A stretch of 56,175 nt of DNA from Sulfuricurvum sp. (GTDB lineage Bacteria; Campylobacterota; Campylobacteria; Campylobacterales; Sulfurimonadaceae): NCBI GenBank assembly GCA_022729795.1, contig DZBD01000003.1:1-56175 (forward strand), written 5' to 3'. A model generated the notes under the pieces. The model had not been told where the DNA came from. It did no database searches and saw nothing but the letters and a program-made list of their open reading frames with translations. This document shows, one piece after another, positions 15,224 through 33,255 of this stretch. The translations under genes and the position numbers were made by a program. Every line of letters starts with the position of its first letter. Within the stretch, counting starts at the first letter, position 1.

Positions 15224-15840
15224 GTGCACGTGAAGTGATGCGGGTATCAAAAATTATCCCTGTTATTAGTATCAACAGTGTTGATGAGATGCTGTATTTA
15301 GCAGAGGCTTTAATCGAAGGGGGCGTATCTATCTTTGAAATTACACTCAGAACTCCCGCGGCACTCGGTGCAATCCAAGAGGTGGCAAAAAGATTTCCAC
15401 ATGCCATGACCGGGGCAGGAACCGTACTGAACTCTGAGCAGTTTAAAAAGGTCGAAGATGCCGGAGCAAGCTTTGCTATTAGTCCGGGGCTTACGGCATC
15501 ATTAGCAATCTACAAAAGTTCAATTCCTTTACTTCCCGGAGTTGCAACTGCAAGTGAAATTATGCAGGGGATAGAATACGGTTTTGATGCTTTTAAGCTT
15601 TTTCCTGCAAATATCGTAGGGGGAATCGGGGCACTCAAAGCTTTTGGAGCACCATTTAAAGAGGTAGTTTTTTGCCCCACAGGTGGAATAAACGCTACGA
15701 ATGCAAAAGATTTTCTAGCACTAGAGAACGTACTGTGTATTGGCGGAAGCTGGATTGTCCCTGCCGAACTTATAGCAGCAAAAAGATTTGATGAGATTAC
15801 CAAGATAACAAAAGAGGCTATCTTGGCTTTAAACGCTTAA
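15217..15840 (+). CDS. eda: KDPG aldolase
   Basis: Cleaves 2-keto-3-deoxy-6-phosphogluconate to pyruvate and glyceraldehyde-3-phosphate. The class I aldolase barrel shows the Schiff-base Lys in FDAFKLFPAN, plus FEITLRTPAA and GAGTVL motifs. The start at 15217 (MLSAREVM) gives 207 residues and fits the family; a reading from 15187 would overlap edd more deeply. It is last in the operon. Its stop codon shares four bases with the stop of the convergent glgB. Confidence 0.95.
   Translation: MLSAREVMRVSKIIPVISINSVDEMLYLAEALIEGGVSIFEITLRTPAALGAIQEVAKRFPHAMTGAGTVLNSEQFKKVEDAGASFAISPGLTASLAIYKSSIPLLPGVATASEIMQGIEYGFDAFKLFPANIVGGIGALKAFGAPFKEVVFCPTGGINATNAKDFLALENVLCIGGSWIVPAELIAAKRFDEITKITKEAILALNA
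15397..15406 (+). repeat. Dispersed word, full copy
   Basis: TTCCACATGCCATG in eda, encoding F-P-H-A-M. Confidence 0.9.
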
Positions 15841-17759
15841 AGAGTCTTTTTTAAATAAATAACGCATAGCGGAGGCAAGGTTACTTCTAAAGTATATTTG
15901 CGTCCGTGTTGCTCTTTTTTCTTCGATTGAATAGGACTTTTATTTTGAATATTCCAGCCGTCAAAAATCTCTGATTGAGAGTTAAATATCTCTGTATATG
16001 TTCCCGCAGACGATAAACCGATAGGATAATCTACATGCGTTTTGTCGGAAAAATTACAAAGAACTATAATGGAATCTTCCTCTTTGTCCCCTTTTCTTAT
16101 AAATGAAATCACATTTGCTTTATAATCATTCTCATCAATCCACTCAAAACCTTCTACTTCAGTATCGTTGAGATGTAAAGCCGGCTCGTCTTGGTACAGT
16201 TTATTAAGTGTTTTGCAAAGTGTTTGAATTCCTTTATGTGGAGCATATTCTAAAAGGTGCCAATCTAAACTTTGCTGATAATTCCACTCTGCAAATTGAG
16301 CGAACTCTCCCCCCATAAAAAGAAGCTTTTTCCCGGGATGAGCAATCATCAGAGCAAAAAGAGCCCGCAAGTTTGCAAATTTTTGATTATTATCTCCGGG
16401 CATCTTGTTAATGAGAGAGCCTTTCATATGCACAACCTCATCATGACTCAAGGGAAGAAGATAATTTTCATTGTACATGTAGACAAAACTAAAAGTCAAG
16501 TCACTATGATGGTGCTGGCGGTATATAGGATCTTTTTTAAAGTATTTTAGGACATCGTGCATCCAGCCCATATTCCATTTAAAGCCAAATCCAAGTCCCC
16601 CTTTGTCAACGGGACGACTCACCATCGGATATGCGGTAGACTCCTCCGCAAACATGATAATATCGTTAAATGTACCGTATGTACTGTTGTTGAGCTGTTT
16701 TAAAAACTTGATTGCGCCTAAGTTTTTATTGCCGCCATACTCGTTTGCTATCCACTGCCCGTCTTTTCTTGCATAATCCAAATGAAGCATAGAAGCTACG
16801 GCATCTACCCGAATTCCGTCAAGATGATACTTATCAAGCCAAAACATTGCTGAGTTAATCAAAAAAGCGCGTACTTCGTTTCGCTCGTAATTAAAAATAG
16901 CGCTTCCCCACTCAGGGTGGTATCCTTGGCGAGGATCTTTATGTTCATACAAACATGTGCCGTCAAAATTCATCAGACCGTGCCCATCCGTGACAAAATG
17001 TGAGGGAACCCAGTCGAGAATAACGCCTATTCCATGCTCGTGCATAACGTCTACAAAATTCATAAACTCCTGCGGTGAACCATAGCGTGCAGTCGGCGCA
17101 AAATAACCGTTGACCTGATATCCCCATGAACCTTCGAAAGGATACTCCGTAATCGGGAGCAGTTCCACATGGGTAAAATGCATCTCTTTGGCATATTTTG
17201 CCAACTCGAGTGCTGCTTCTTTATATGTTAAAAAGCGATTGTCTTCCTCAACTTTACGTCTCCATGAGCCCAAATGTACCTCATAGATGGAGATAGGTGC
17301 TTTATGTGAGTTATTCTGATGGCGGGTATTCATCCATGTATCATCACTCCAATCATAGCTATCCAAACTCCAAACACGAGAAGCAGAGTGAGGCGCTACC
17401 TCGGCATAAAATGCGTAAGGATCGGCTTTATCGGGATTTGCATTATGATCATTCGTGATGATATGATATTTGTATGTTGAACCTTGTTCTACATTTTCAA
17501 TAAACCCCTCCCAAATTCCTGAATCAAAATCACGAAGTCTTAAAGGATGTGACTCCGTGTCATATTCATTAAAATCGCCACGCACGGTAACGCCCAAGGC
17601 ATTAGGAGCCCAAACTGAAAAGTACGTTCCCTGTTTGCTTTGGCGTTGCATCAGATGCGCACCGAAATGTTCATAAAGCTTCAAGTGTGTCCCTTCGCTA
17701 AAAAGATGCACATCAAAATCGCTAAAACGGCTTATGTCGTAGTGTATAGGATATTTCAT
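15837..17759 (-). CDS. glgB: 1,4-alpha-glucan branching enzyme
   Basis: GH13 enzyme that makes alpha-1,6 branches in glycogen. An N-terminal CBM48 domain (about residues 15-110, YFSVWAPNALGVTVRGDFN) precedes the barrel. The nucleophile Asp lies in GIRVDAVASMLHLDY, the acid/base Glu in IMFAEESTAYP, and LPLSHDEVVHMKGS is also present. Length 640 is usual for the shorter GlgB form. AGGGGT precedes the ATG. It is the last gene of the eleven-gene minus-strand glycogen run and is back-to-back with eda, with no room for a separate terminator. Confidence 0.96.
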   Translation of the reverse strand: MKYPIHYDISRFSDFDVHLFSEGTHLKLYEHFGAHLMQRQSKQGTYFSVWAPNALGVTVRGDFNEYDTESHPLRLRDFDSGIWEGFIENVEQGSTYKYHIITNDHNANPDKADPYAFYAEVAPHSASRVWSLDSYDWSDDTWMNTRHQNNSHKAPISIYEVHLGSWRRKVEEDNRFLTYKEAALELAKYAKEMHFTHVELLPITEYPFEGSWGYQVNGYFAPTARYGSPQEFMNFVDVMHEHGIGVILDWVPSHFVTDGHGLMNFDGTCLYEHKDPRQGYHPEWGSAIFNYERNEVRAFLINSAMFWLDKYHLDGIRVDAVASMLHLDYARKDGQWIANEYGGNKNLGAIKFLKQLNNSTYGTFNDIIMFAEESTAYPMVSRPVDKGGLGFGFKWNMGWMHDVLKYFKKDPIYRQHHHSDLTFSFVYMYNENYLLPLSHDEVVHMKGSLINKMPGDNNQKFANLRALFALMIAHPGKKLLFMGGEFAQFAEWNYQQSLDWHLLEYAPHKGIQTLCKTLNKLYQDEPALHLNDTEVEGFEWIDENDYKANVISFIRKGDKEEDSIIVLCNFSDKTHVDYPIGLSSAGTYTEIFNSQSEIFDGWNIQNKSPIQSKKKEQHGRKYTLEVTLPPLCVIYLKKTL

Positions 17760-17784: not shown

Positions 17785-19254
17785 TTATGCGTTGTACTTC
17801 GAGATTATATGCTGATAAACTTCATTATACTCTTTTGCTGAATCATCCCAGCTAAAATGCATTTTCATTGCTCTTTCTTGCATTGCCTCAAATGCTTGTT
17901 TATTATTGTGATAAATATTGACAGCCCACATTACAGTGTTATAAAGTCCATCTTGTGTAGCAAAATCAAACTTAAAGCCATTACCCGTTCCCTCTGCTTC
18001 ATTGAAATTCTCTATCGTATCATCCAAACCACCCGTAGAGCGAACTATAGGCAATGTCCCATAACGCAGACTATATATCTGGTTCAATCCACAAGGCTCA
18101 AACAGAGACGGCATCAGAAAAAGATCACATCCTGCTTCTATCTGGTGTGCAAGTTTATCGCTGTAGCCTACATGTAAACCAAATTTTCCGCTATTGTGCG
18201 CACTCACCGTGCTAAAATAGTGTTCAGCCCACTTCTCTCCTGCACCAAGCATTACCACTTGAAGTTCTTGTTTTAAAAGTCCGTTAATCACGCCAGCAAC
18301 TAAGCCTATTCCCTTTTGTTCGGCAAAACGCCCTACAAATCCGATAAGCGGAACATCATCTCGTACTTCAAGTTTAAAATACTCCTGCATTGCACGCTTG
18401 CATGCTCTCTTACCATCCATATTTCCGATATCAAATCTTTCTTGTATATAAGAATCTACAGAGGGATTCCATTCATCATAATCCACCCCGTTTAATATTC
18501 CGAACAACTTTGATGCATGTGCCTGAATATGTCTCTCTAAGCCAAATCCAAACTCCGGGGTTTGAATCTCTTGTGCATAACGTTTTGAGACAGTTGTAAC
18601 TGCGTCGGCATATGCAATTCCCCCTTTAAGAAAATTAAGTCCGTCAAGGCTTTCAAGGGCATGTGGATTAAAATGACTCCATCCGATTTCCATAACATCT
18701 ACCGCGCCCTTAAAGAAATGTCCTTGATGCTGTAGATTATGAATCGTTAACACGGTAGCCGCATTTCTAAAATCATGCACATATCTTGTTTTACTTAAAA
18801 GAGGGAGAATCGCCGTATGCCAATCATTCGCATGAATAACATCGGGTGTAAAATGCAACATTTTACATAACTCTAATGATGCTTTAGAAAAAAAGATAAA
18901 GCGGTTGTCATTATCGCCGTATGCCTTACCGTTATCATCATAAAGTCCTCTACGCCCAAACATCTGTTCATGGTCTATAAAGTAGATAGAAACATCGCTA
19001 TCGGGAAGTTTCGTAGTATATACGCCTGCCCATAATGTCCCCATCGGTCCCATTGTAACACCCAAACTTCCATCAACATGCTCAAGCTTCGTTTTATCAA
19101 TCTGGTAATAACGCGGCATCACTACGATAATATTATGTCCAAGTTTGGCAAGCGCCTTTGGAAGAGCTCCTGCAACGTCTGCCAAGCCACCTGTTTTTGC
19201 AAATGGCACCACTTCGGCAGCCGTAAATAATATATTTAATTTTCTCTCACTCAT
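17785..19254 (-). CDS. glgA: Glycogen synthase, copy 1
   Basis: GT5 glucosyltransferase that extends alpha-1,4-glucan from a nucleotide-glucose donor. The donor-binding loop is PFAKTGGLADVAGALP near residue 20, and the C-terminal EPCGLNQIYSLRYGT holds the conserved Glu. Length 489 is typical. Its start overlaps the end of the second synthase gene by four bases. Donor preference (ADP- or UDP-glucose) cannot be read from the sequence. No glgC is present in the window, while galU is. Confidence 0.95.
   Translation of the reverse strand: MSERKLNILFTAAEVVPFAKTGGLADVAGALPKALAKLGHNIIVVMPRYYQIDKTKLEHVDGSLGVTMGPMGTLWAGVYTTKLPDSDVSIYFIDHEQMFGRRGLYDDNGKAYGDNDNRFIFFSKASLELCKMLHFTPDVIHANDWHTAILPLLSKTRYVHDFRNAATVLTIHNLQHQGHFFKGAVDVMEIGWSHFNPHALESLDGLNFLKGGIAYADAVTTVSKRYAQEIQTPEFGFGLERHIQAHASKLFGILNGVDYDEWNPSVDSYIQERFDIGNMDGKRACKRAMQEYFKLEVRDDVPLIGFVGRFAEQKGIGLVAGVINGLLKQELQVVMLGAGEKWAEHYFSTVSAHNSGKFGLHVGYSDKLAHQIEAGCDLFLMPSLFEPCGLNQIYSLRYGTLPIVRSTGGLDDTIENFNEAEGTGNGFKFDFATQDGLYNTVMWAVNIYHNNKQAFEAMQERAMKMHFSWDDSAKEYNEVYQHIISKYNA
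18658..18666 (-). repeat. Dispersed word, 9-base core
   Basis: ATCCACATGCC in glgA copy 1, encoding N-P-H-A-L. Confidence 0.8.
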
Positions 19255-20660
19255 TGTAACTCCTCAAATAAATTTTGATAATAATGAAAATAAACCTTAG
19301 CACTTTTGTCAAAGGAAAAATCACATTTCATATTAAAGTGGATAATTTCTTGCATCTTTTGTGTATTTTGATATAACTCCAATGCTCTCTCAATCGCTCC
19401 AAGCAAAGCTTTTTTTGTTGGCTCGAAAAATACGATACCTCTGCCGCATACACTCTCATCTTCATGTACCGTATCAAAAAGACCGCCTACTCCATGAACA
19501 ACAGGGACGGTTGCATAGCGCATTGCAATCATCTGATTTAATCCGCAAGGCTCAAATAACGAAGGCATCAGTAAAAAATCGGCAGATGCATAAATACGAT
19601 GCGAAAGCTCTTCGTCGTAGCCAAAAAGAAATGAAAAGTTATCATATTTCTTTGCAAACTCTTCTAGTTGTTCTTTGTAAGAGGCAGTACCCTCCACCAA
19701 CAAAAGTAAATGCAATTGTCGTGACAAAATAAGCTCTAAAGAACTAAGCAAAAGGTCAAAACCTTTTTGATGCGCCAAGCGGCTTATCATCGCAAAAAGG
19801 GGATTTTTGATACCCTCTTGAACCCCTATATTTTGAAAAAGTTCTTTTTTATTAAGATACTTCAACTCCAAATGTTCACTATCAAAAGGTGCGATAAGAG
19901 CCTTATCTGTTAGTGGACTAAACGTTGCCGTATCAATACCGTTAAGCACTCCAAAAAGCTTGCTAGAGTACTTTTGTAAAAATCCATCTAGCCCACAACC
20001 GAATGTATTACTCAAAATTTCCTCGGCATATCTAGGACTTACCGTAGTGACACAGTCGCTATAGGCAATACCCGCTTTCATGAGATTCACTTTTGAATGA
20101 AACTCTAAAGCGTCCATTGTAAAATATTTTTTATCTATTCCAAGACGTTGGAGTGAATCAAAACCAAAAACACCCTGATAAGCCAGATTATGAATAGTAA
20201 AAACTGTTTTGAGATTCAATTTTTTATCTTTGATGAACAAGGCACAAAGTGCACTATGCCAATCATTAAGATGCAAAATATCCACATGGAGTTGTACTGC
20301 CAACTCTACAGCCGCCGCACAAAAGATTCCAAATCGCAAATCGTTATTGGAATATTCTCCCTTTGCATCACCGTAAAGATTCTGAGTAAAACTCAAAAGA
20401 GGGGCATCAATAAAATATGTTTTTACCCCATCATTTTCTGACGTATAAAGTGAAATATTATAATAAATTCCACTAAGTTCAATACGAAAAGAGATTTCAC
20501 ATTTCTCAAGCAACTCCTTGTTCATAAACCCGTAAAGCGGCATGACTCTAGAAATATCAAGATATTTTTTCAAAGCACGAGGCAGGGCATGTGCAACATC
20601 GGCAAGACCCCCGCTCTTGGCATGTGGAAAAATTTCACTTGATACAAAAAGAAGTTTCAC
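19251..20660 (-). CDS. glgA: Glycogen synthase, copy 2
   Basis: A second GT5 synthase directly upstream of copy 1 and clearly diverged from it. The donor loop reads FPHAKSGGLADVAHALP and the C-terminal motif EPCGLNQMIAMRYAT is intact, so both copies look active. Length is 469. The DNA at the donor loop is a full copy of the dispersed word (20618-20627), which puts His where copy 1 has Phe. Paired GlgA proteins can differ in priming versus elongation, but which does what here is unknown. It overlaps galT by one base. Confidence 0.93.
   Translation of the reverse strand: MKLLFVSSEIFPHAKSGGLADVAHALPRALKKYLDISRVMPLYGFMNKELLEKCEISFRIELSGIYYNISLYTSENDGVKTYFIDAPLLSFTQNLYGDAKGEYSNNDLRFGIFCAAAVELAVQLHVDILHLNDWHSALCALFIKDKKLNLKTVFTIHNLAYQGVFGFDSLQRLGIDKKYFTMDALEFHSKVNLMKAGIAYSDCVTTVSPRYAEEILSNTFGCGLDGFLQKYSSKLFGVLNGIDTATFSPLTDKALIAPFDSEHLELKYLNKKELFQNIGVQEGIKNPLFAMISRLAHQKGFDLLLSSLELILSRQLHLLLLVEGTASYKEQLEEFAKKYDNFSFLFGYDEELSHRIYASADFLLMPSLFEPCGLNQMIAMRYATVPVVHGVGGLFDTVHEDESVCGRGIVFFEPTKKALLGAIERALELYQNTQKMQEIIHFNMKCDFSFDKSAKVYFHYYQNLFEELQ
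20618..20627 (-). repeat. Dispersed word, full copy
   Basis: TTCCACATGCCAAG in glgA copy 2, at the donor-binding loop F-P-H-A-K. Confidence 0.9.
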
Positions 20661-21679
20661 TAGATACTCTTAGAGTTTAAAAGCACGGCGGATTCTTCCG
20701 GAGAAACCGGATTAATCCCCATTCCCGTAGAAACTTCGAAGCCGCCGATTCTATAAATACGAGGAGTAATGCGGATAGTAAAACGGTAGTTGTTATGCAA
20801 ACTAGACATATACTGCTCATTTTCAAAATTGGTATTGAGCGGTGCTAATTTAAAATACAGATTGTAATCAAAATTGCCAAGCTGATTTGTCAATTTTGTA
20901 AATATACTTTTGATTAAAATCGAAAGATTAATAATATCATCACGACTACATTTTTCCAGACTCGAAAGATTGCGTTTGGGCGCAATCATAACTTCAAAGG
21001 GGAAGCTGCTGGCATAGGGGCAAAAGGCAACAAATATCCCAACTTCTTCCACGATACGCTCTTTTGCAGTAATCTCATTTTGTAGAATATCTTCTACCTT
21101 TCCCCGTCCGTGTCTTTTGTAATAGAGCATATTGTGCTCAAGAAAAATACGCTCGTTTTGCGGCATTACGGGAAGTGCCAAAATTTGAGTATGAGGGTGC
21201 TCTTGTGTTGCACCGGCATGTGCTCCGTAATTTTTAAAGATACTGAGATGAATTAAACGATGATCTTTTTTGAGATCATCTATACGAATAATCATACTAC
21301 GCAACCAATTCTCAATAGAGCGCACATCAAGCTTTTCAAGACCGCAATCATGGCAGGGAGAATCAATTAAAACTTCATGTGCACCCACTCCGGCAGTTAC
21401 TTCAAACATACCGAATCTCATTGATTTTTGTTCAAGTTCGACCTGAACAGCCTTATAGAGATTAGGCACAACACGTGTCTTCCATCCTGATTTATTTGCT
21501 TCATTGTCACGAATAGCATACACCTCCGGCGGAGTGAGTGCTTCATTTCCATTACAAAACGGGCATCTATGATTAGTCGGTTTCGTTATTTTTGTTTTTT
21601 GTATATCAGGACGATGAAGTCTTTCTTGTGCTATCAACACATACTGACCGTGAAGATGATCAAATCGAATCTCAGACAT
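20660..21679 (-). CDS. galT: Galactose-1-phosphate uridylyltransferase family protein
   Basis: HIT-superfamily nucleotidyltransferase moving UMP between hexose-1-phosphates. Zinc-site CPFCNGNE is near residue 40 and the catalytic HPHTQ motif is near residue 170. The start at 21679 (MSEIRFDHL) follows AGG by eight bases and gives 339 residues; it overlaps the end of the GH57 gene by eight bases. No galE or galK is nearby. In a glycogen operon it may act on glucose-1-phosphate with ADP or UDP sugars, which is inference. Confidence 0.88.
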   Translation of the reverse strand: MSEIRFDHLHGQYVLIAQERLHRPDIQKTKITKPTNHRCPFCNGNEALTPPEVYAIRDNEANKSGWKTRVVPNLYKAVQVELEQKSMRFGMFEVTAGVGAHEVLIDSPCHDCGLEKLDVRSIENWLRSMIIRIDDLKKDHRLIHLSIFKNYGAHAGATQEHPHTQILALPVMPQNERIFLEHNMLYYKRHGRGKVEDILQNEITAKERIVEEVGIFVAFCPYASSFPFEVMIAPKRNLSSLEKCSRDDIINLSILIKSIFTKLTNQLGNFDYNLYFKLAPLNTNFENEQYMSSLHNNYRFTIRITPRIYRIGGFEVSTGMGINPVSPEESAVLLNSKSI

Positions 21680-23717
21680 CCGATACACCTAAACATAACT
21701 CTAAGTTTAATTCTGATTTAAATCCACATGCCAAGACAAATGAAATTTGTTGGGCTACTCTATCAAAACCACTCTCGCTTTGTGAGATAGTATTGAGTAT
21801 AAAAGCGTGGATATTGCATTTTTCACTACTGGTGAGTGTAAGTTTCTTTTGTGTAAACGTATCCACAATCACAAAAGTATCCGTATCATACAAAGATAGA
21901 CCATCTTCTATCGACTTAGAATTGAGTGTTGCAAAATGGGGATGAGCCAAATGAAAATTGAATTCCATTCCATAAAACAGTTGCTCCGGATACTCTGTGG
22001 TAAAGCCCAAATCAAGTTTTACACTCTCATTCTCAAAACTATATTGTTTTTTGAGAGTACTGCCATACTGATGATTCGCATAATAAATTCCACCGTGTCG
22101 GGAAAATGTATTTGTCTTCGAATCAAGCTCAAAAGCTTGATTTGCGAAATCCCCAAGCTCATGAAATGAAACTTTTTTAAAATTTTCCAGCTCAAAAGAT
22201 GAGGCAGAAAAATGGTCAATAAAAGAGTATTTCGGATGCCAATCGTAAATTAAGTCATCTTTTAAAGTTTCATCTATCGTATCTGCATCGCTGTGGATAG
22301 TAGCTATTTCATCACTCTTTTGCGTTGACTCGAGATTGATTATTTCCACTATTTTAGGATGGAGTATTTTTTCATGATACGCTTCTTTGCGTCGCATAAG
22401 TGTATTTTGCCAATTGAAAAGTACTTCGAGTGAGCCAAATTCAACCATTTGCCCACCCCAACGGCTTGAGAAAACTATACTCAGAGCTTGAGAAAGAACT
22501 TTAAGATTTTGATATCCTGTTTTTTCTATATCTGCTACCTCGAATCCTATCTGCTCTTGCGCCGACTCTTTTTCTATCTCAAGCAAATAATGGTATGCAT
22601 TATCGCGTAAATTCGGCAAGTATAAACCACCGAATACTCCGTGCCATAAGACATCATTTGTTTGTAGTTTATAGAGACTCTCTAATGCGGATGAGGAAAA
22701 AGTTTCTTGATCTAAGGAGTGTGAGAGCATTCTTTTATGCAAATAATTACTTTCACTATATTTAATTAAAAAGTTTTTCCAGATACCGCCTTTAATAAAA
22801 GCGACACCCATCGTATCAAAATACTCTTTTCCAACTTTTTCTTTCAGTGCTTCAAGTGCTAAAGTCTGCTCACTTTGAAGACTCCATTCCCCCATCTCAA
22901 AGTAAGAAGTATTATTTAAATATGCCAAACCGCGAGAAGTGTTTTGTTCAAGATATTGGCTGTAATGTTTTGTCTGGATAGCCTCATTTTCTAAAATAGC
23001 TTCCACAAATTTTTCCAACCATTTTTTCTCATAAACCCATTCGTGTGTTTTTGGCCACAGACCGAATTTTTCGGCATCATCAAAGATAATCGCAGCAGAA
23101 TCTTCCTCTTTTGCGCAATCCAAGATAGCATCAATGGCACGTTGCACACTAAAAAATGGAAGTGCGTAGCGCAGAGACTGCGAAATTGGAAAAAGTGCCA
23201 AAGGATAGCCTCCCTCTTCAGTTTCGTAATATCCATCCATTTTTTTCGGATCAAATCCGCTACTCAAAAAATGATAATCATCTACTACGGCAAATTTAAT
23301 ATGAGATGCATACAAATCAGGCACAATAGAAGATTCCCAAACACGCTCCGTTAACCACAAGCCTTTAGCCTCGGATTTGAGATGTGTTTTTATATACTCA
23401 CTGAGTTTATTTACCTGTGCTTGCCTATCACGTGATGGGATAGCACTTAACACAGGTTCATAATAGCCTGCACTTATCCATTCAATAGCTCCTTTTTGCG
23501 TGAGCTTTTGCATATGAGAAAAGATGTTGGGATGCTTCGTTCGTATTTCATCCAACAGCCAGCCGCTACAGTGTACGGCAAATTTAAAATTTGGATACTT
23601 GCTCATCGTTTCAAAAAATGGACCATAACATAAAGCTATTGCTTCATCTACCGATTCTCCAAAATTATCCACAGGTTGATGCATATGAACTCCCAGCAAC
23701 AAAGAAACTTTTTTCAT
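21672..23717 (-). CDS. GH57 4-alpha-glucanotransferase-like enzyme
   Basis: Begins LLLGVHMHQPVDNFGES, closely like the GVHxHQPxGNF start of archaeal GH57 4-alpha-glucanotransferases. The nucleophile Glu is in WLTERVWES (about residue 124) and the acid/base Asp in IIFDDAEKFGLWP (about 213), matching the known positions in the Thermococcus enzyme. The C-terminal half fits the beta-sandwich domain of that group. Length is 681. A disproportionating role on linear glucan is likely; alpha-amylase activity is possible. It contains one full copy of the dispersed word near its 3' end. Confidence 0.87.
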   Translation of the reverse strand: MKKVSLLLGVHMHQPVDNFGESVDEAIALCYGPFFETMSKYPNFKFAVHCSGWLLDEIRTKHPNIFSHMQKLTQKGAIEWISAGYYEPVLSAIPSRDRQAQVNKLSEYIKTHLKSEAKGLWLTERVWESSIVPDLYASHIKFAVVDDYHFLSSGFDPKKMDGYYETEEGGYPLALFPISQSLRYALPFFSVQRAIDAILDCAKEEDSAAIIFDDAEKFGLWPKTHEWVYEKKWLEKFVEAILENEAIQTKHYSQYLEQNTSRGLAYLNNTSYFEMGEWSLQSEQTLALEALKEKVGKEYFDTMGVAFIKGGIWKNFLIKYSESNYLHKRMLSHSLDQETFSSSALESLYKLQTNDVLWHGVFGGLYLPNLRDNAYHYLLEIEKESAQEQIGFEVADIEKTGYQNLKVLSQALSIVFSSRWGGQMVEFGSLEVLFNWQNTLMRRKEAYHEKILHPKIVEIINLESTQKSDEIATIHSDADTIDETLKDDLIYDWHPKYSFIDHFSASSFELENFKKVSFHELGDFANQAFELDSKTNTFSRHGGIYYANHQYGSTLKKQYSFENESVKLDLGFTTEYPEQLFYGMEFNFHLAHPHFATLNSKSIEDGLSLYDTDTFVIVDTFTQKKLTLTSSEKCNIHAFILNTISQSESGFDRVAQQISFVLACGFKSELNLELCLGVSDV
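21724..21733 (+). repeat. Dispersed word, full copy
   Basis: ATCCACATGCCAAG in the first GH57 gene (antisense), encoding L-A-C-G. Confidence 0.9.
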
Positions 23718-23743: not shown

Positions 23744-25780
23744 CTAAACGAACCAATTTTCGCTGTAATCAGTGTTTAAGCTCATGGCTAATTCACCAAA
23801 TCCCGGTAAAGACTGCACAACTATATCGCCCTCGTAAAATTCAAAGCGTAGTTCTATATCATTGACTTTGATAGAGCTTTTATCTATGCGCATTTCAAGC
23901 CATGTTCCACAGGCAATTTCAATATTTACCTCTGCTAGGGTAACTTCAAAATGTATTTTTTTTGACGCTTGAAGTTCAATCATTTGATCAAAATTAAGAG
24001 GTTCGATAATTATGCGCAATGAATCACACGTGCACAACTTAGCCATATCTGCAGCAAAAGCAAAATAAACATTGAAATCGTCTTGCCCATATAATATTTT
24101 ACGTACAGGTCCACGCACCCTATCCATCGTTGAGAATAGCTTACTCTCATCAACAACACCTGATCCTATCCACTCAAAAAAAGAGTCATGAATTCCGTTA
24201 GTCGAAGGAGAAATACTCGATTGCGGACTGAGCCAGAAATTTTGTGAAGTCACATTTTCTAAAATAGGTTTAAAAAGTTCTGCCGGAGGAGTAATTTTCA
24301 TAAGGTCATATATAGAAATAAGGTGCACACGAAAGAGAGTATCAAACTCTTCCCCAAATTCAGTATAGTGATCATCTCCATACCACCAAAACCAGTCAGA
24401 ACATTCTGCGGCCAAGAAATGATCACTTATTCTAGCGATTGTTTCATTCTCCAAAGAAGGTTTATGATGCTCATAGTCACGTTTTGTAAGATATATCAAC
24501 TCCCAAGCACGTGTTTTTTCTTTATGTCCTACCCAAGTATTAAACTCACCGTGTATCCAACTTCCACATGCCAAGGTACTTAACGGCTTTGCTTCAAGTT
24601 TACTTACATTATCCATATGTACCGCATGGCACCAAGGAGTATTTTGAATTTTTGAATAAAGTGCATCAAAAAAATCAAATGCATTATTTTTAAAAAACTC
24701 CCAGGCATTTTCTCCATCTAATATAACAAAAACGGTATTATCCGTATTTGCGTTATTGATTGGCCCAAGCAAGCCCATAAAATGGTCTGCTGCCTTATGT
24801 GCATCCCAATATCTGTAAGTAAAGCCAATTAAATCACTTAATCCATGATCTCGAAAACCCATACAAATGCCATTGTAATTATATGGTGAATAAAGACTGC
24901 TTCTATCATTGTTTCCAAGTGATTTAAATAATATGCTCTCATCTGTTGCGATCCACTTTATGCCGCACTCTTTTAAAAGTGCAACACTTTTTGTATCAAC
25001 CGCTCCCTCTGCTGGCCAAAATCCCTGAGGTACAAAACCAAAAGTATCTATAAAAAGCTCTTTTGCTTTTTTGACTTGAAGTCTGGCGTCTTCTTCAAGG
25101 CAAACATGATGCTTAGGAACATGTGTTGACGGATTTGCTTCAAGAGCATTATTCATATCCATCAATAGCGGCAAAATCGGATGATTTAAAGGTGTTGTTG
25201 AGATAGATATGACATCTTCATTATGTAATTTTGTGTAATAGTCAAAAATAGTCTGAATAAACACTGAGAGTTCACGAAGCAAAAGTTGCTTATCTTCTTG
25301 AATATAATTTTGTCCTTTTTTAATTAGCATATTAATGACAGAATTTTCACTGCGTAAATATGCTCCACACCAAGAGAGAATAAAAAGTACCTGCATATCA
25401 AAAAGCTCATAGTTTTCATAATTATTTTTTTGATAGAGAGCTACATAAGACTTCAAAGGTGCTACCATCGTATCAAAAGGGGTACTTTTACATAGCTTTA
25501 TCATCCAGTTACGATCTGTTTGGTTGAGGTCGTGAAGATCTTGTATCCAAAGGTTCAAAAATTTATCATGCAAATGAGGCATCTCATAATAAAGCTTCAG
25601 TTGTGATATTAGCGGAGGAGTGATATTAAAGGTTGCTTTGAGTCCTTGGTGCCTTTGTAGCATCCAAGGCATATCATAGTAATCTTTAATGGCATGCAAA
25701 AAAACCCAAGGCATTTGCATAATGCCCGAGTTATCACGATAATCAGGCTGATGCATATGCCAAATGAAACTTAAATTCAA
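23744..25780 (-). CDS. GH57 glycoside hydrolase (amylase/amylopullulanase-like)
   Basis: Begins LSFIWHMHQPDYRD, the N-terminal signature of the amylopullulanase-like GH57 group. The likely nucleophile Glu is in GFWPAEGAVD (about residue 258) and the acid/base Asp in VILDGENAWEFF (about 354). There is no signal peptide, so it should act in the cytoplasm on stored glucan. Length is 678. It differs in subgroup from the neighbouring GH57 gene, so the two are not a recent duplication. It contains one full copy of the dispersed word. Confidence 0.85.
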   Translation of the reverse strand: MNLSFIWHMHQPDYRDNSGIMQMPWVFLHAIKDYYDMPWMLQRHQGLKATFNITPPLISQLKLYYEMPHLHDKFLNLWIQDLHDLNQTDRNWMIKLCKSTPFDTMVAPLKSYVALYQKNNYENYELFDMQVLFILSWCGAYLRSENSVINMLIKKGQNYIQEDKQLLLRELSVFIQTIFDYYTKLHNEDVISISTTPLNHPILPLLMDMNNALEANPSTHVPKHHVCLEEDARLQVKKAKELFIDTFGFVPQGFWPAEGAVDTKSVALLKECGIKWIATDESILFKSLGNNDRSSLYSPYNYNGICMGFRDHGLSDLIGFTYRYWDAHKAADHFMGLLGPINNANTDNTVFVILDGENAWEFFKNNAFDFFDALYSKIQNTPWCHAVHMDNVSKLEAKPLSTLACGSWIHGEFNTWVGHKEKTRAWELIYLTKRDYEHHKPSLENETIARISDHFLAAECSDWFWWYGDDHYTEFGEEFDTLFRVHLISIYDLMKITPPAELFKPILENVTSQNFWLSPQSSISPSTNGIHDSFFEWIGSGVVDESKLFSTMDRVRGPVRKILYGQDDFNVYFAFAADMAKLCTCDSLRIIIEPLNFDQMIELQASKKIHFEVTLAEVNIEIACGTWLEMRIDKSSIKVNDIELRFEFYEGDIVVQSLPGFGELAMSLNTDYSENWFV
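24564..24573 (+). repeat. Dispersed word, full copy
   Basis: TTCCACATGCCAAG in the second GH57 gene (antisense), encoding L-A-C-G. Confidence 0.9.
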
Positions 25781-25793
25781 GGCTTTATCCTCA

Positions 25794-28295
25794 TCAGAGA
25801 GACCATTTAGCTATTTTAGCACTGTATTTTTCATAAATTGTATCGCCGGCGTCTTTATTTTTTGCTTGAATGTAAATATTTAAATGATCACTGTATTCAC
25901 TAGGAATCATTAATATCCAATCTGTTTCGTTTTCCCAAATCTTCACACCGTCAACAGAAGATGATTTTTTATCTTTTGCATGTTCTAAAAATTTTCGCAT
26001 CATCTTACCTTTGAGAGATTGACTGCATTCAATCTTGAGAGCACGATAATCAAAGGAATCGATACGCTTGACTAATTCAGACAATTTAATATTATGGCAA
26101 CTCAAAAGCTCTATAATTTTCAAACTAGCATACATAGCATCTCTTGTCACACCAAATTCAGTAAAAGCAAAATTTCCGTCAACCGTGGCAATTAAATCAT
26201 ATTCTTTTAATTTTTCAGCTTTAAAATTCGAATATCTTCCACGTTCAATTTCAAGGTTTTCAAAATAAACGACATCCGGAGCCCAAGTTGGCAAAAATAC
26301 TCTTTTTTTCTTCTCTGAAGCGTCCATATTTAAAAGATGTAGTACAGCATAGAGACCATTTATTTTATCTAATACCTGACCTTCATCGGTTACAAGCAAA
26401 ACTTGCTGTGCATTAGGATAAATCATAACGCCCATTTCGTATTTTAAACTTTTCACTATTGCGGAAATATTTGCTTTAGAACGTTTTTCGAGCGCTTTGA
26501 TATTTGAGAGTTTTTTCTCGTCATAATAAGCATTTAAAACAATATTTTCTAAACCGACTTCATTAAGAATATTTGGAAAAATATCCGCAGTATTTCCGTG
26601 CATCAAATCCACTGCAACTCTAAAATTCCCACATTTAATAATATTTTGTTCAATACTTTTTTCAACTGCAATTTTGTAATCTATACACTCTTGGTTATGC
26701 ATGGTTTCATGAATTTCACCAATTTGTGAATAGTCTACACGACGAAATTTTTCAATAAAAAATGATTTTTCAATCCCTTTTATAGAATTAGAATCGATGC
26801 GCAAAGCATCTTCGTTAAAAAGTGTAATTTCTGAATTTGTCGGATCATTAATATCCTGTTTAAAATGTGCTCCGCCGATCAAGTGAGAATCTTTTGCAAG
26901 TGTGTGACGCAATACGGATGATGGTGTGCTTTTAAGATCTACAACATTAATGCCGGCTGACAAAAGTCCACCTAAAAATGCACGCTTAAGCATACGTGAG
27001 CTTTTATCATTATCACGTCCAACTACGACCTTAGAGCCTATCGGTAATTGTGCCGCGAATGCTTCTGCAAGTTTAGTGGCCATCTCACATGATAATTCAA
27101 CATTACTTTTCCCCGTAACACTACCGTTTTCAAAAATTGAATTCTTATATTTGCTTCCCCAAACAAGATTATGGCTAATAATAGATGCAGCTTCTATTTT
27201 TTTATCCGGCCAGATTGTAACGTCTTGTTCAAACGACGTCAACTCGCCGACATCACATCCTTGTGCCAATATAAGACCTGCTTTAGCGGTTACGTTTTTA
27301 TCTATAATATTATCATTACAAATGATACTGTTATCTAATTTTGCATTATTACCGACGCTTATATTTTCCCAAAACACTGTATTACGGATGTTGCAGCCGC
27401 TACCGATAGTAACGTTATCTCCAATTACAACATTGTTGAGTTTTACATCTTTTTTAATAGTAACATTTTTCCCAAGTACAACATTCCCGATTATCTCAAC
27501 ATGTTTTGGCAACTCGTAAGACGCATCGCTAGTATAAAGTATTCCATCAGGATACGTTTTTTTATGACCTGGGATTTTAAAATTAACACGATTACCGAGA
27601 ATATCTTCAAAAACTTCACGATAACTCTCAGGGTTACCGACATCACGCCAGTAACCTTCAAGATTATATCCCATAAGTTGAATGCCTTTATGCATCAAAA
27701 GTGGAAAAAGATCTTTTGCAAAATCAAAATTTTCACTACGAGGTATATAATTAAGAATTTCCGGCTCTATAATATAAATTCCGGTATTGATTGTATCGCT
27801 AAAAACTTCTCCCCAGCTTGGCTTTTCTAAAAATTTTTCTATTACATTGTCTTCATTAGCTATAACAACCCCAAATTGAAGCGGATTTTCAACGGATGTT
27901 AAGCCTATAGAGAGTTTCGCTTTTTTATTTTTATGAAAGTCAAAAATACGCTGTATATCAAAATCTGTAACCAAATCACCGCTGATAATAATAAAGTTTT
28001 CATCGCCGATATATTCTTCCGCCAATTTTACCGCACCTGCCGTGCCATAATCATCATCAGGAATAACATAAGTAATATTAATACCAAAATCACTGCCGTC
28101 TTTAAAATAGTCTTGAATTACTTCCGGCTTAAAATACAACAATACGATGAATTCTTTGATACCAAGATCTTTGAGCATCATCATCGTATGCTCCATCATC
28201 GGACGATTTACTATTGGCAACATTGGTTTTGGTCTAGAATTTGTAAGTGGCTGGATTCTTGTGCCGAATCCGCCTGCCATAACTACTGCTTTCAT
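25794..28295 (-). CDS. Sugar-phosphate nucleotidyltransferase fused to a degenerate phosphomannomutase domain
   Basis: Three parts are seen. Residues 1-230 are a nucleotidyltransferase (VVMAGGFGTRIQPLT, RPKPMLPIVN). Residues about 250-370 are a left-handed beta-helix with hexapeptide repeats such as GNVVLGKNVTIKKDV. Residues about 385-833 are an alpha-D-phosphohexomutase-like region. In that last region the phosphoserine loop expected as TASHNP reads GGAHFKQD (about 473-480), and the metal loop DxDxDR reads VDGNFAF (about 706), so mutase activity is unlikely. Similar fusions are annotated as mannose-1-phosphate guanylyltransferases; in this operon glucose-1-phosphate is also a possible substrate. 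Confidence 0.85.
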   Translation of the reverse strand: MKAVVMAGGFGTRIQPLTNSRPKPMLPIVNRPMMEHTMMMLKDLGIKEFIVLLYFKPEVIQDYFKDGSDFGINITYVIPDDDYGTAGAVKLAEEYIGDENFIIISGDLVTDFDIQRIFDFHKNKKAKLSIGLTSVENPLQFGVVIANEDNVIEKFLEKPSWGEVFSDTINTGIYIIEPEILNYIPRSENFDFAKDLFPLLMHKGIQLMGYNLEGYWRDVGNPESYREVFEDILGNRVNFKIPGHKKTYPDGILYTSDASYELPKHVEIIGNVVLGKNVTIKKDVKLNNVVIGDNVTIGSGCNIRNTVFWENISVGNNAKLDNSIICNDNIIDKNVTAKAGLILAQGCDVGELTSFEQDVTIWPDKKIEAASIISHNLVWGSKYKNSIFENGSVTGKSNVELSCEMATKLAEAFAAQLPIGSKVVVGRDNDKSSRMLKRAFLGGLLSAGINVVDLKSTPSSVLRHTLAKDSHLIGGAHFKQDINDPTNSEITLFNEDALRIDSNSIKGIEKSFFIEKFRRVDYSQIGEIHETMHNQECIDYKIAVEKSIEQNIIKCGNFRVAVDLMHGNTADIFPNILNEVGLENIVLNAYYDEKKLSNIKALEKRSKANISAIVKSLKYEMGVMIYPNAQQVLLVTDEGQVLDKINGLYAVLHLLNMDASEKKKRVFLPTWAPDVVYFENLEIERGRYSNFKAEKLKEYDLIATVDGNFAFTEFGVTRDAMYASLKIIELLSCHNIKLSELVKRIDSFDYRALKIECSQSLKGKMMRKFLEHAKDKKSSSVDGVKIWENETDWILMIPSEYSDHLNIYIQAKNKDAGDTIYEKYSAKIAKWSL

Positions 28296-28325: not shown

Positions 28326-28604
28326 CTAAATTTTCAATAATGTATTTTGAGTACCAAACGGAGATGCTATAATTTCTAAATCATTATCACTTAGCCATTC
28401 ATTTTCATTTGTTCGATAGCCAAATTGGTAGTCACGACCTAACGGCAATATCTTTGTGATATAAAATTCACCACTTTTTTTAACCTTCATAGGTTCTTCA
28501 AGCCAATCATTCCATTCGCCACAGATAGAAATACCTTCACTATCCTTTGGCACAATAGTAAAAGTAACCCAAGCTTTATTCCCTTTTTTTGTGATTTTAA
28601 TCAT
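28326..28604 (-). CDS. Stand-alone glycogen-binding (CBM48/AMPK1-like) domain protein
   Basis: A 92-residue protein that is almost entirely one carbohydrate-binding module. KAWVTFTIVP, ISICGEWNDWLEEPMKV and GEFYITKILPLGRDYQFGYR match the CBM48/AMPK beta-subunit pattern, with Trp residues in the GEWNDW loop. No catalytic domain is attached. It may tether operon enzymes to glycogen or act as a regulatory partner, which is inference. Thirty bases separate it from the next gene in the run. Confidence 0.85.
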   Translation of the reverse strand: MIKITKKGNKAWVTFTIVPKDSEGISICGEWNDWLEEPMKVKKSGEFYITKILPLGRDYQFGYRTNENEWLSDNDLEIIASPFGTQNTLLKI

Positions 28605-28687: not shown

Positions 28688-29902
28688 TTATTTCTCTACA
28701 CGGTTAAGGTTACTAAAACCCGGTAAAATTTTACCCTCTAGTAACTCCAAACTCGCTCCGCCGCCCGTAGATATAAAACTAAAATTTTCCGCTTCCGATG
28801 CCTTATCAACGGCATCCGCCGTATCACCGCCGCCAACAATAGTGTAGGCATAACAATCACCGATTGCATTAGCAATTTTAAAAGTACCTTTTGAGAATTT
28901 ATCAATCTCGTAAATTCCCATAGGACCGTTCCATATAATCGTATTTGAAAGTCCAATAGCTTCACTAAAAAGCTTGACGGTAGCCGGACCGATATCAACT
29001 GCCCTAAATCCATCCAATACATCTTGAGAAGGCACTACTTGAATATCTATGCTTTTTTCAATAGAATCAGTAATTACAACATCTACCGGAAGATAGACTT
29101 TCACTTGGTGTTCCTGCGCCTTTGCTAAAACATCACGAGCTGTTTGTATGTATTCTTCCTCATATAAAGACTCTTTCATATCATAACCCAGTGCTCTTAA
29201 AAATGTGTTACTCATGGCTCCACCGATTATTAACTTATCTATTTTTTCAAGAACTGCCTCAAGAAGTGTTATTTTTGAAGATATTTTAGCTCCTCCTACA
29301 ACCAGTGCTATTGGATGTACCGGATGTTCAAGCGCTTTATTAAAAGCTTCAATTTCACGCATCATCAAAAATCCGGCAACTTTAATCTCTACAAACTCCG
29401 TAATGCCATAAGTTGAAGCGTGTTTTCTATGAGATGTTCCGAATGCATCATTGATATAAACATCACAAATGGAAGCAAGTTTTTTTGAAAACTCTGCATC
29501 ATTTTGTTTTTCACCTTCATGAAAACGAATATTTTCAAGTAAAAAAACGCGTTCTAAAGAGCATGTAGCAATTTCATTTTGTGAGGATTCGAAATCTTCT
29601 ATAAATTCAACTTTTTTTTGCAATAAACGCTCAAGTCGCTTGCGGACATGTATAAGCGAATACTTTTCCTCATACCCACCTTTTGGATCTCCAAAATGAG
29701 AAACCAGAGTAATTGAACAAGCTCCATGATCAATACAATAATTAATAGTCGGTAGTGCCATTCTAATTCTGCGGTCATCCGTAATATTATTATGTGAATC
29801 TACCGGAACATTGAAATCAACACGGATAAGAACCCTTTTTCCGCTCACATCAATATCTTTTAAACTTTTAACCCCTTGCATATAAGAAATATTCGATATC
29901 AT
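28688..29902 (-). CDS. pgk: Phosphoglycerate kinase
   Basis: Transfers phosphate between 1,3-bisphosphoglycerate and ADP in lower glycolysis and gluconeogenesis. The N-terminal VLIRVDFNVP, VSHFGDP, and C-terminal GGGDTADAVDKA with STGGGASLELLEGK are intact. Length is 404. The start overlaps the glgP stop by four bases (ATGA). The family's own start may be the internal Met of MQGVKSLKDI, but the coupled ATG is well placed. Finding pgk between glgP and glycogen genes, not with gap or tpi, is unusual. Confidence 0.94.
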   Translation of the reverse strand: MISNISYMQGVKSLKDIDVSGKRVLIRVDFNVPVDSHNNITDDRRIRMALPTINYCIDHGACSITLVSHFGDPKGGYEEKYSLIHVRKRLERLLQKKVEFIEDFESSQNEIATCSLERVFLLENIRFHEGEKQNDAEFSKKLASICDVYINDAFGTSHRKHASTYGITEFVEIKVAGFLMMREIEAFNKALEHPVHPIALVVGGAKISSKITLLEAVLEKIDKLIIGGAMSNTFLRALGYDMKESLYEEEYIQTARDVLAKAQEHQVKVYLPVDVVITDSIEKSIDIQVVPSQDVLDGFRAVDIGPATVKLFSEAIGLSNTIIWNGPMGIYEIDKFSKGTFKIANAIGDCYAYTIVGGGDTADAVDKASEAENFSFISTGGGASLELLEGKILPGFSNLNRVEK

Positions 29903-31578
29903 ATTGTTTCCTCGCTATCATTCATTCTACGATCATGATTATTATACATTCGGTCATAATATTCAGCAGCCATACGTCCGGAGTCAAAATCAATCTCTAT
30001 GTCAGACATAGCGTTTTTCATGATTTCCAACCATTTAGTAGGATTATCGTAATACATAGGTATTATCGTATTTTCTAAAGTATCCATCATGTGTAGATTA
30101 TCTAAATGATCTTGTTCATGGATAGGGAGTTTGTGATCAAGTGCAGGTATCGTGAAAGCATTTTTCCCATCACGTGCAAACTCAGGATGCCATCCATCGT
30201 CAATAGAAAAATGTATAGAGCCGTTCATGCTTGCAGTCATGCCGCTTGTTCCGCTAGCCTCACGTGTTATGCGAGGAGTGTTTAGCCAAACATCACTACC
30301 TTGTTTTAGTAAACGTGAAAGAGTTATCTCGTACCCTATAAGAACAGCCATATTTTTATAATGATGACTCACTCGGACTAATTCATTAAATATTTCGGTA
30401 GCACCCTGATCTGTCGGATAAGGTTTTCCTGCCCAAATAATTTGAACGGGTCTTTCTTCATTTTTTATCAATTTAACAAAACGTTGGAAATCGTATTTGA
30501 GCAAGTCAGGACGCTTATATTCAGCAAAACGGCGTGCCCAAACTATAGTTAACACTTCAGGGTCAAACATTTTTCCTGTTTGGTCTGCAACAACATCAAA
30601 AAGAGCTTTCTTAAGATGCTTTTTTCTTGCTACAATTTCGTAATCTTCATGTTCATCAAGTGCACGAATTAGGGTCTTGTCTGTCCAAAATTTCTTATTT
30701 TGAGCATTTGTAATAGATATAATCTCGCATCTGTCAGCAATATGTGCCCACATCTCATTAGAAACAATTCCGTGAATTTTAGAAACGGCATTTGCAATTT
30801 TAGCACTACGTAAGGCACCTACTGTAAGTGAAAAACTATCTTCATTCTCATAGCCGCTTATTTTACGAACTGTATCAAGAGAAAGACCGGCAAAAAATCC
30901 CATTTCGTGTAAAAAATGAATATTGTGTTCTTCATTGCCTGCTTTTTCTGGAGTATGTGTTGTAAAAACTACATGCTTTTGTACTTCTTTCATGCTCTTA
31001 TATTTATTAAAAAGCTCATAAACTAAAGGTAAAGAATGCCCTTCATTCATGTGATAAATATCAACCGACTGATTCAGTGCCTCTAATATTTTTGTTCCGC
31101 CGATTCCTAAAACTATCTCTTGAGCTACACGAGTACGTTCATTACCATCATAGAGTTTGTGAGTAATTGTTCGTGATAAATAATCATTTTCATCCGTATC
31201 CGTAGAGAGTAAAATCATTGGTGCGGTACCGAAAATATCAGGACGAACAAGAAAAGCTTTTACAACGACGTTCTCATTATTAATATTAACCGTGACCTTA
31301 GTGTCAAGTTCTTCAAGAAAATAATAAAATTTTCTCGTAAATATAGGGTGAAGTGTTCTATCTTCGTTACGAGATTGATCATAATATCCAAAACTCCAAA
31401 GAAGACCGACCCCAATTACATTTTGTTTTAAATCATAGGCACTGCGCATATGAGATCCCGCAAGAAAACCTAAACCTCCAGAATATATCTTAAGAGCCTG
31501 ATCCACTGCAAATTCCATAGAGAAATAAGCGGACGCCGTACTGTACTTTTTGCTGATATCGTATGAGAATAAATTCAT
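29899..31578 (-). CDS. glgP: Alpha-glucan phosphorylase family protein with Thr at the PLP-lysine position
   Basis: GT35-type protein of the short phosphorylase group: AYFSMEFAVDQALKIYSGGL at the N-terminus, THTPEKAGNEEHN, RRFAEYKRPDLL and WAGKPYPTDQGA all fit. In glycogen phosphorylases the cofactor lysine lies in a motif like EASGTSGMK. Here it reads EASGTSGMTASMNG with codon ACT (30237-30235) for Thr448. Without that lysine PLP cannot be bound as a Schiff base. Length 559 is short for the family. It may be inactive, have changed chemistry, or play a regulatory role. The frame is intact, and its operon position argues that it is expressed. Confidence 0.83.
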   Translation of the reverse strand: MNLFSYDISKKYSTASAYFSMEFAVDQALKIYSGGLGFLAGSHMRSAYDLKQNVIGVGLLWSFGYYDQSRNEDRTLHPIFTRKFYYFLEELDTKVTVNINNENVVVKAFLVRPDIFGTAPMILLSTDTDENDYLSRTITHKLYDGNERTRVAQEIVLGIGGTKILEALNQSVDIYHMNEGHSLPLVYELFNKYKSMKEVQKHVVFTTHTPEKAGNEEHNIHFLHEMGFFAGLSLDTVRKISGYENEDSFSLTVGALRSAKIANAVSKIHGIVSNEMWAHIADRCEIISITNAQNKKFWTDKTLIRALDEHEDYEIVARKKHLKKALFDVVADQTGKMFDPEVLTIVWARRFAEYKRPDLLKYDFQRFVKLIKNEERPVQIIWAGKPYPTDQGATEIFNELVRVSHHYKNMAVLIGYEITLSRLLKQGSDVWLNTPRITREASGTSGMTASMNGSIHFSIDDGWHPEFARDGKNAFTIPALDHKLPIHEQDHLDNLHMMDTLENTIIPMYYDNPTKWLEIMKNAMSDIEIDFDSGRMAAEYYDRMYNNHDRRMNDSEETI

Positions 31579-31629: not shown

Positions 31630-33255
31630 CTATATAACACTTAAAACTAAAGCTTTAGCCTCCTCTTGAATTCTGAATAAATGCTCTTTTGAGATGAAGC
31701 TCTCAGCATAAATTTTATATATATCCTCTGTTCCTGACGGGCGTGCAGCAAACCACCCATTTTTTGTTACAACCTTCAGTCCGCCTATCGGCTGATTATT
31801 TCCGGGTGCATTTGTAAAAACTGCAATAATCTCTTCACCCGCTAGGCTTTTAGAAGTAATATCGCTAGGTGAAAGTTTTTTAAGCTTTGCTTTTTGTTCA
31901 GCTGATGCCGGTGCGTCACTCCGTTCATAATAAGAAATCCCAAACTTTTTTTCCAACTCCGCATATATTACTGAAGGGTCTTTTTTAAGTCTCTCAGTAA
32001 TCTCAAAAGCAAGCAGATTTAATATAATTCCATCTTTGTCGCTTGAAAAAACTGACCCGTCTTGACGTAAAAAAGAAGCACCGGCACTCTCCTCTCCTCC
32101 AAAACCTATAGTTCCGTTACAAAGACCAGTTACAAACCACTTAAAACCAACCGGAACCTCTACAATCTCTTTGCCGATTGATGCTGCAACACGATCAATC
32201 ATAGAACTTGAAACTAATGTTTTTCCTATTTTGAGATTTTTATCCCAATTTTCACGATATTGAAACAAGTACCAAATTGCTACCGAAAGGTAGTGGTTAG
32301 GATTCATAAGTCCTGCACTTTTTGTAACTATTCCGTGACGGTCAAAGTCAGGATCATTTGCAAAAGCAAGATCAAATTGATTTTTAAGAGTAATGAGGGA
32401 TGTCATGGCATGTGGAGATGAACAGTCCATACGAACTTTTCCATCATGATCACAGCTCATAAAACTAAAAGTTGGATCTACATACTCATTTACAATTTCA
32501 AGTTTTAAGCCATAAATCTCATTAATTTTTTTATAAACTTCTATTCCCGAACCGCCAAGTGGATCAACTCCAACTTTAAGTTTGCTTGATTGAAGCAGTT
32601 TCATATCTATTATAGTACTCAATGCTTGAACATATGGGGTGATAAAGTCCATATAAATTACTTTATTTAAAGCTTCTTCTACACTTACATATTTCACACC
32701 GCGCAACTCATCTTCTATATATTGGTTGGCTTGCTTTTCTATAACAGAAGTCGCATCTGTGTCTGCCGGACCTCCGTGTGGTGGATTATATTTAAAGCCA
32801 CCGTCTTCGGGCGGATTATGTGAAGGGGTAATAACAACACCGTCACAAGAATATTCATATATTTTATTAGCTTCAATAACCGTAAATGAAAGAACGGGAG
32901 TAGGCGTATATCCATCATTCTTTGCAATAACACATTCTACACCGTTTGCTACACAAACCTGCAACGTTGTAAGTTGTGCAGGACTAGAAAGAGCATGGGT
33001 ATCCTTTGCAATAAAAAGTTTACCCTTAATGCCTTGAGATTTTCTATAATCACACATTGCCTGTGCAATAGCAAAAATATGTTTTTCATTAAAACTTTTT
33101 TTGAAAGAACAGCCACGATGCCCAGATGTTCCAAAAACAACCTTCTGCTCAGAGCAACTTATATCTGGATTAAGAGTATAATAAGAGGCAACAAGATTGG
33201 GTACATTTATCAACTTATCACGCTCTACTTGTTTTGCAGCACCTTCATGTAACAT
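31630..33255 (-). CDS. pgm: Alpha-D-glucose phosphate-specific phosphoglucomutase
   Basis: Interconverts glucose-1-phosphate and glucose-6-phosphate, linking glycogen to the Entner-Doudoroff operon. It has VFGTSGHRG at the N-terminus, the phosphoserine loop VITPSHNPPEDGG, the metal loop NDPDFDRHG and the C-terminal phosphate loop RPSGTEDIYKIYAES. Length 541 fits the bacterial Pgm type. It is first in the minus-strand run, with GGAG nine bases before the ATG. One full copy of the dispersed word (32406) encodes part of SSPHAMTS. Confidence 0.96.
   Translation of the reverse strand: MLHEGAAKQVERDKLINVPNLVASYYTLNPDISCSEQKVVFGTSGHRGCSFKKSFNEKHIFAIAQAMCDYRKSQGIKGKLFIAKDTHALSSPAQLTTLQVCVANGVECVIAKNDGYTPTPVLSFTVIEANKIYEYSCDGVVITPSHNPPEDGGFKYNPPHGGPADTDATSVIEKQANQYIEDELRGVKYVSVEEALNKVIYMDFITPYVQALSTIIDMKLLQSSKLKVGVDPLGGSGIEVYKKINEIYGLKLEIVNEYVDPTFSFMSCDHDGKVRMDCSSPHAMTSLITLKNQFDLAFANDPDFDRHGIVTKSAGLMNPNHYLSVAIWYLFQYRENWDKNLKIGKTLVSSSMIDRVAASIGKEIVEVPVGFKWFVTGLCNGTIGFGGEESAGASFLRQDGSVFSSDKDGIILNLLAFEITERLKKDPSVIYAELEKKFGISYYERSDAPASAEQKAKLKKLSPSDITSKSLAGEEIIAVFTNAPGNNQPIGGLKVVTKNGWFAARPSGTEDIYKIYAESFISKEHLFRIQEEAKALVLSVI
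32406..32415 (-). repeat. Dispersed word, full copy
   Basis: CTCCACATGCCATG in pgm, encoding S-P-H-A-M. Confidence 0.9.

Follow-up and report, generated by a model that had tools for sequence, protein, structure and literature searches.

Glycogen phosphorylases are the textbook case of PLP being used for its phosphate and not for its aldehyde. To our knowledge, all phosphorylases of the GT35 family are assumed to require this cofactor. In the GT-B enzymes that use nucleotide sugars, the residue eight positions after the catalytic glutamate (the EX7E register) lies at the ribose of the nucleotide. A literature search for GT35 members without the PLP lysine found no report, such absence being weak evidence. 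The phosphate of PLP acts as an acid/base beside the substrate phosphate (PMC6411801; PMC9081730). One review suggests that, in a proto-GT35 dependent on NDP-sugars, PLP took the place of a nucleoside monophosphate (PMC11046441). Described enzymes with which a GT35 protein of the TIGR02094 subfamily can be compared include the 852 aa glycogen phosphorylase of Segatella copri (PDB 9l6i, 20yr), short Lys-type TIGR02094 proteins of about 555–580 aa, the classical GlgP/MalP enzymes (TIGR02093) and the ADP-glucose-dependent GT5 synthase GlgA, from which PLP is absent.

The window, a stretch of 56,175 nucleotides from a Sulfuricurvum sp. assembly, encodes a short TIGR02094 protein, P0001, with threonine in place of the PLP lysine. 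Its gene (29899–31578, minus strand; read from 31578 to 29899) encodes 559 aa and has no internal stops. P0001 scores 450.7 bits against TIGR02094, above the curated cut-off of 191.7, and falls below the cut-offs for classical glycogen phosphorylase (TIGR02093, 51.5 against 552.9 bits) and GT5 glycogen/starch synthase (TIGR02095, 39.7 against 328.45 bits). The Pfam Phosphorylase family PF00343 is also hit, and relatives are annotated as glgP or alpha-glucan family phosphorylase. By translation and alignment, the catalytic loop EASGTSGMT spans Glu440 to Thr448 (30235–30261, minus strand). The codon for residue 448, read directly from the window at 30235–30237, is AGT on the plus strand and ACT on the minus strand that carries the gene. 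The TIGR02094 motif EA[SC]GT[SG]x[MEI]K ends in the lysine to which PLP is bound as a Schiff base, and P0001 departs from it at Thr448. This residue, which we take to be the counterpart of Lys680 in rabbit glycogen phosphorylase (GP), stands exactly at the cofactor site, since the Segatella enzyme reads EASGTSGEK at the equivalent place. It also aligns with the PLP lysine of E. coli MalP, Lys646 (PMC11046441). Serine or threonine here makes an aldimine with PLP impossible. P0001 has the TIGR02094 profile but not the cofactor residue that defines it, and classing it among the PLP phosphorylases should therefore be avoided. The threonine had been pointed out in a preliminary description of this DNA, together with the motifs RRFAEYKR and AGKPYP, and both motifs are present. 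The first (residues 349–356; 30511–30534, minus strand; translation and alignment) contributes the phosphate-site Arg/Lys residues, presumably the equivalents of rabbit GP K568/R569/K574. The second (residues 383–388; 30415–30432, minus strand) aligns with AGKAHP of Lys-type proteins.

The same description placed the open frame in a busy operon, and the gene is indeed the second of 11 closely spaced minus-strand genes of glycogen metabolism and glycolysis. The operon opens with a phosphoglucomutase gene (pgm, 31630–33255; TIGR01132, above cut-off). Downstream of P0001 lies phosphoglycerate kinase (28688–29902), assigned from its sequence and as a conserved neighbour, the start of which overlaps the GT35 stop by 4 bases. 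There follows a stand-alone glycogen-binding protein of 92 aa (28326–28604), AMPK1_CBM/CBM48-like at 25.2 bits, just below the Pfam gathering threshold of 26.8; this AMPK-type protein is conserved in several relatives. An 833-aa fusion of sugar-nucleotidyltransferase and phosphohexomutase-like parts (25794–28295, minus strand), assigned from profile and motifs, keeps GGFGTR intact in its nucleotidyltransferase half. Its mutase half looks degenerate, because it has GGAHFKQDINDP in place of the expected phosphoserine loop, TASHNP. The remaining genes encode a GH57 glycosidase/glucanotransferase (23744–25780), a GH57 protein of the 4-alpha-glucanotransferase/alpha-amylase type (21672–23717), a GalT-family nucleotidyltransferase with an intact HPH motif (20660–21688), two copies of GT5 glycogen synthase GlgA (the second at 19251–20660, the first at 17785–19254) and the branching enzyme GlgB (15837–17759), all on the minus strand and all assigned by profile, with the motif as further evidence for GalT. 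The tandem GlgAs (17785–20660) are divergent and occur together in many Campylobacterota loci, and one of them may have a different role. Convergent with the operon is a phosphogluconate dehydratase gene (edd, 13382–15223, plus strand), suggesting an Entner–Doudoroff gene set beside the glycogen operon. P0001 is the only GT35 protein in this genome, a draft of 140 contigs.

Orthologues were collected from 60 related genomes and 80 loci, and Bacteroidota and plasmid members were then added. Lysine in close orthologues would have pointed to an error; across the 60 genomes and 80 loci every one has Thr or Ser. Some of these genomes, or of their relatives, also encode longer paralogues, and these read EACGTSGMK. 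When distinct proteins were compared with no residue presupposed, position 448 held Thr in 98, Ser in 27 and Lys in 44, and no other residue. The clade is represented by 124 full-length distinct members, drawn from Campylobacterota and Bacteroidota, of which 98 carry Thr and the other 26 Ser. Lys is invariant among the 44 Lys-type or classical sequences gathered, paralogues from related genomes among them; so clean a separation lies far beyond chance. The two hydroxyl residues interchange repeatedly (nine changes over the 45 tips of the tree), as if a hydroxyl at 448 were selected across two phyla. A sequencing error or decaying gene, which the draft state of the assembly might suggest, deserves scarcely any credence and is rejected: 124 distinct relatives share the residue, the frame is intact, and the step from ACT to AAA or AAG needs two base changes, which rules out a single-base error. 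One clade member comes from a record titled Halopseudomonas xinjiangensis MAG (L104 / G064) and labelled Pseudomonadota. It groups with Bacteroidota, and no clade member was found in the 199 other genomes of the Pseudomonadota sample; horizontal transfer, or a mislabelled or mixed assembly, would account for it.

In a tree built without the GT5 root, the Ser/Thr proteins form a single group (SH-aLRT 100) on a long stem. The nearest Lys-type protein, sister to the clade in the best tree, is a Lys-bearing sequence of 575 aa from a genome of the Bacteroidota sample (L172, in G300). An alternative tree with all Lys-type TIGR02094 sequences together is not rejected (p-AU 0.42), which leaves more than one placement of the clade within TIGR02094 compatible with the data. 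Lysine occurs in the classical branches and in the remaining TIGR02094 branches alike; the covalent anchor was therefore most simply lost once, and a relict ancestral state is not favoured. Comparison of 98 Ser/Thr sequences with 16 Lys-type sequences revealed about ten pocket positions that are altered in the clade along with the PLP lysine. The following are fixed or nearly so, with the Lys-type state in brackets: S42 (D), A292-Q293-N294 (G-V-H), V346-W347 (G-F), P386-Y387 (A-H), G415 (D/N), S421 (A) and K425 (V/I). L172 has the clade-type state at none of these sites; it is Lys-type throughout except for Gly at 421, where Ala is usual, and Thr at 425, and it already has W61, K30 and D300 in common with the clade. 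Since L172 keeps the old states, pocket and lysine were altered together. The short Lys-type proteins in general (among them L172 and the Simkania and Methylophaga plasmid glgP products) match P0001 in length and overall fold but retain Lys, D42, G346, F347 (Tyr in one), A386 and H387. The Segatella enzyme shares with P0001 its subfamily, the GT-B fold, EASGTSG and the phosphate-site Arg/Lys residues, and differs in its own PLP lysine, its extra N- and C-terminal parts and its Lys-type pocket.

Sugar- and phosphate-contacting residues have fared differently from the pocket. Eighteen of them were mapped by alignment to phosphorylase sites, which we take to be E88, G134, G135, L136, D339, H341, H377, N484, W491, K568, R569, Y573, K574, Y648, E672, S674, G675 and T676 in rabbit numbering. 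All 18 are at least 97% conserved in the 124 clade members, a level reached by 142 of 536 positions overall (hypergeometric p ~2e-11). None of Glu440, Arg350, Lys355, His208, Asn291 and the glycine loop varies in these sequences, and purifying selection on the catalytic residues is strong. The preliminary description had called the rest of the substrate site intact. This holds for the sugar- and phosphate-contact residues and not for AGKPYP, cited there as an example, which is itself a clade-specific change. The pattern is unlike that of a decayed pseudoenzyme, and a conserved glucan-binding role might also produce it. A catalytically dead sensor, scaffold or allosteric partner of the glycogen enzymes would explain why the family-defining cofactor residue could be lost, why intact GlgA, GlgB and GH57 enzymes accompany the protein in the closest genomes, and why it adjoins an intact Lys-type phosphorylase in some. 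We regard such a protein as rather improbable, given the invariant catalytic set, which typical pseudoenzymes do not keep, and the absence of a Lys-type partner from most carriers. For the same want of a partner, an obligate inactive subunit of Lys-type phosphorylase, one of three roles raised at the outset, is rejected as a general role. The glucan sensor, another of the three, keeps a small share of the probability. Altered chemistry, the third, is the best supported, by the conserved catalytic residues, the glycogen/glycolysis operon and the position of P0001 as sole GT35 in its genome.

Altered chemistry need not mean that PLP has gone. P0001 could still be a phosphorylase. It might hold PLP by non-covalent contacts or by a lysine elsewhere, or some other small phosphate might serve as acid/base. 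In phosphorylase the chemistry belongs to the phosphate of PLP, the lysine being no more than an anchor (PMC6411801). The clade keeps R349, R350, K355, W298 and Y416, of which W298, Y416 and R349 are pocket features used for PLP and would count against a PLP-free reading. P0001 also stands alone as a GT35 beside phosphoglucomutase. Further support comes from Bacteroidota, where the clade occurs in 26 of 247 genomes, each hit scoring at least 815 bits (Lys-type TIGR02094 proteins reach at most 471). Not one of the 247 genomes has both types, against about 15 expected if taxonomic clustering is ignored, as if the two replaced each other; nor was a classical phosphorylase found alongside a clade member in the 148 Bacteroidota genomes checked. 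Against a phosphorylase of this kind stand the aldimine that Ser/Thr cannot form and the pocket positions that changed in concert. A search by conservation for an alternative PLP lysine gave no good candidate: K83, K319 and K425, invariant and specific to the clade, are outside the catalytic loop, and K30 lies in a low-confidence loop of the model and is not invariant. One Campylobacterota operon (G053, L188 12423–19052, minus strand), which holds a Lys-type and a Ser/Thr-type GT35 with pgm and pgi between them, speaks against plain redundancy; the two types also occur together in a few more Campylobacterota genomes. A phosphorylase in any of these forms is the main rival reading and is judged unlikely.

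An AlphaFold model of P0001 (51-sequence alignment A1, mean pLDDT 87.9, pTM 0.85; active-site loop 21–40 of low confidence) has a GT-B fold, and its best match among solved structures is a GT35 phosphorylase, 9l6i (Z 31.9, rmsd 3.1, 535 residues aligned, 32% identity). No more than about 1.5 Z behind come GT5 glycogen synthases holding ADP (2qzs, Z 30.3; 3cop, Z 30.4), level with MalP (Z 30.1). With the classical GlgP/MalP enzymes (fold Z ~28–30) the protein shares the equivalent catalytic Glu, Arg, Lys, His and glycine loop, and is set apart by the missing lysine and its low TIGR02093 score. With GT5 GlgA it shares the near-equal fold (E. coli GS with ADP), the GY motif and the lack of a PLP lysine, and is set apart by the GT35-specific EASGTSG, R349 and GK motif and by its low TIGR02095 score. 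G415-Y416 of the clade restores the GY found in the GT5 GlgAs of the window. Position 448 is +8 after Glu440; this residue is Tyr or Ile in those GlgAs and Thr in P0001. The median GT5-profile score is 17.7 bits for the clade against 7.4, overlapping the short Lys-type forms, and the majority of the changed pocket residues do not match those of GT5, so that a simple reversion to GT5 is a weak candidate.

On balance, we favour an alpha-glucan glucosyltransferase that is still active although it has given up the PLP anchor and rebuilt its pocket; the version we put first has a nucleotide-type ligand. The clade would have lost the covalent anchor and remodelled its surroundings while retaining the whole sugar- and phosphate-binding apparatus. 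P0001 itself is probably active without covalent PLP, as a retaining alpha-1,4-glucan glucosyltransferase within the glycogen/glycolysis pathway. The kept glycine loop, R349, R350, K355 and T444 could still accommodate one or two phosphates, and the changed residues, judged from the alignment, probably line the former place of the PLP ring. The vacated site may then take another phosphate-bearing ligand. That this is the nucleotide of NDP-glucose as donor, or NDP as acceptor, as in the GT-B glycogen synthases, is a tentative suggestion by analogy, drawn from the +8/ribose register, the restored GY and the proto-GT35 proposal. A GT35 lineage using nucleotide-activated glucose or an NDP acceptor without PLP might, more speculatively, be the reverse of the proto-GT35 step or a model for it. 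Two questions can be put to the clade as a natural system: does a GT35 active site function when PLP is not covalently held, and did the cofactor take over from a nucleotide during evolution? Clade members, found in two phyla, are automatically annotated glgP yet unable to form the PLP aldimine, so that glycogen breakdown has in many cases been predicted from genomes on the strength of an uncharacterized enzyme.

Gene context links the clade to glycogen in Campylobacterota more firmly than in Bacteroidota. Among 60 Campylobacterales genomes, a full GlgA is present in 21 of the 22 carriers and in 4 of the 38 non-carriers (Fisher p 3e-11, kinship ignored). In 67 Campylobacterota loci the upstream neighbour is mostly PGI or GlgB and the downstream one PGK, PFK or a nucleotidyltransferase, with GAPDH nearby. 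Bacteroidota carriers showed no conserved neighbourhood, only a GH13 cyclomaltodextrinase near the gene in some Hymenobacter. GT5 GlgA is missing from 11 of the 26, six of which also lack GlgB, so the protein is not everywhere tied to glycogen made by GlgA. These gaps and the lack of a conserved Bacteroidota context count against the favoured glucosyltransferase. ROK-family sugar kinases, here glucokinases, are fused in frame to the Ser/Thr-type GT35 in two different, divergent Campylobacterota assemblies (L010/L209:8608–11169, minus strand, in G057; L093:2–2119, plus strand), the two fusions being 68% identical over their shared part. A separate ROK gene lies directly upstream in three further loci (L014, L027, L083), tying the clade protein to glucose phosphorylation. 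A divergent pyruvate-kinase-like protein of about 480–500 aa also adjoins the Ser/Thr-type gene (L072:7654–9090 and L102:5483–6970, both minus strand), in Sulfuricurvum and also in Bacteroidota.
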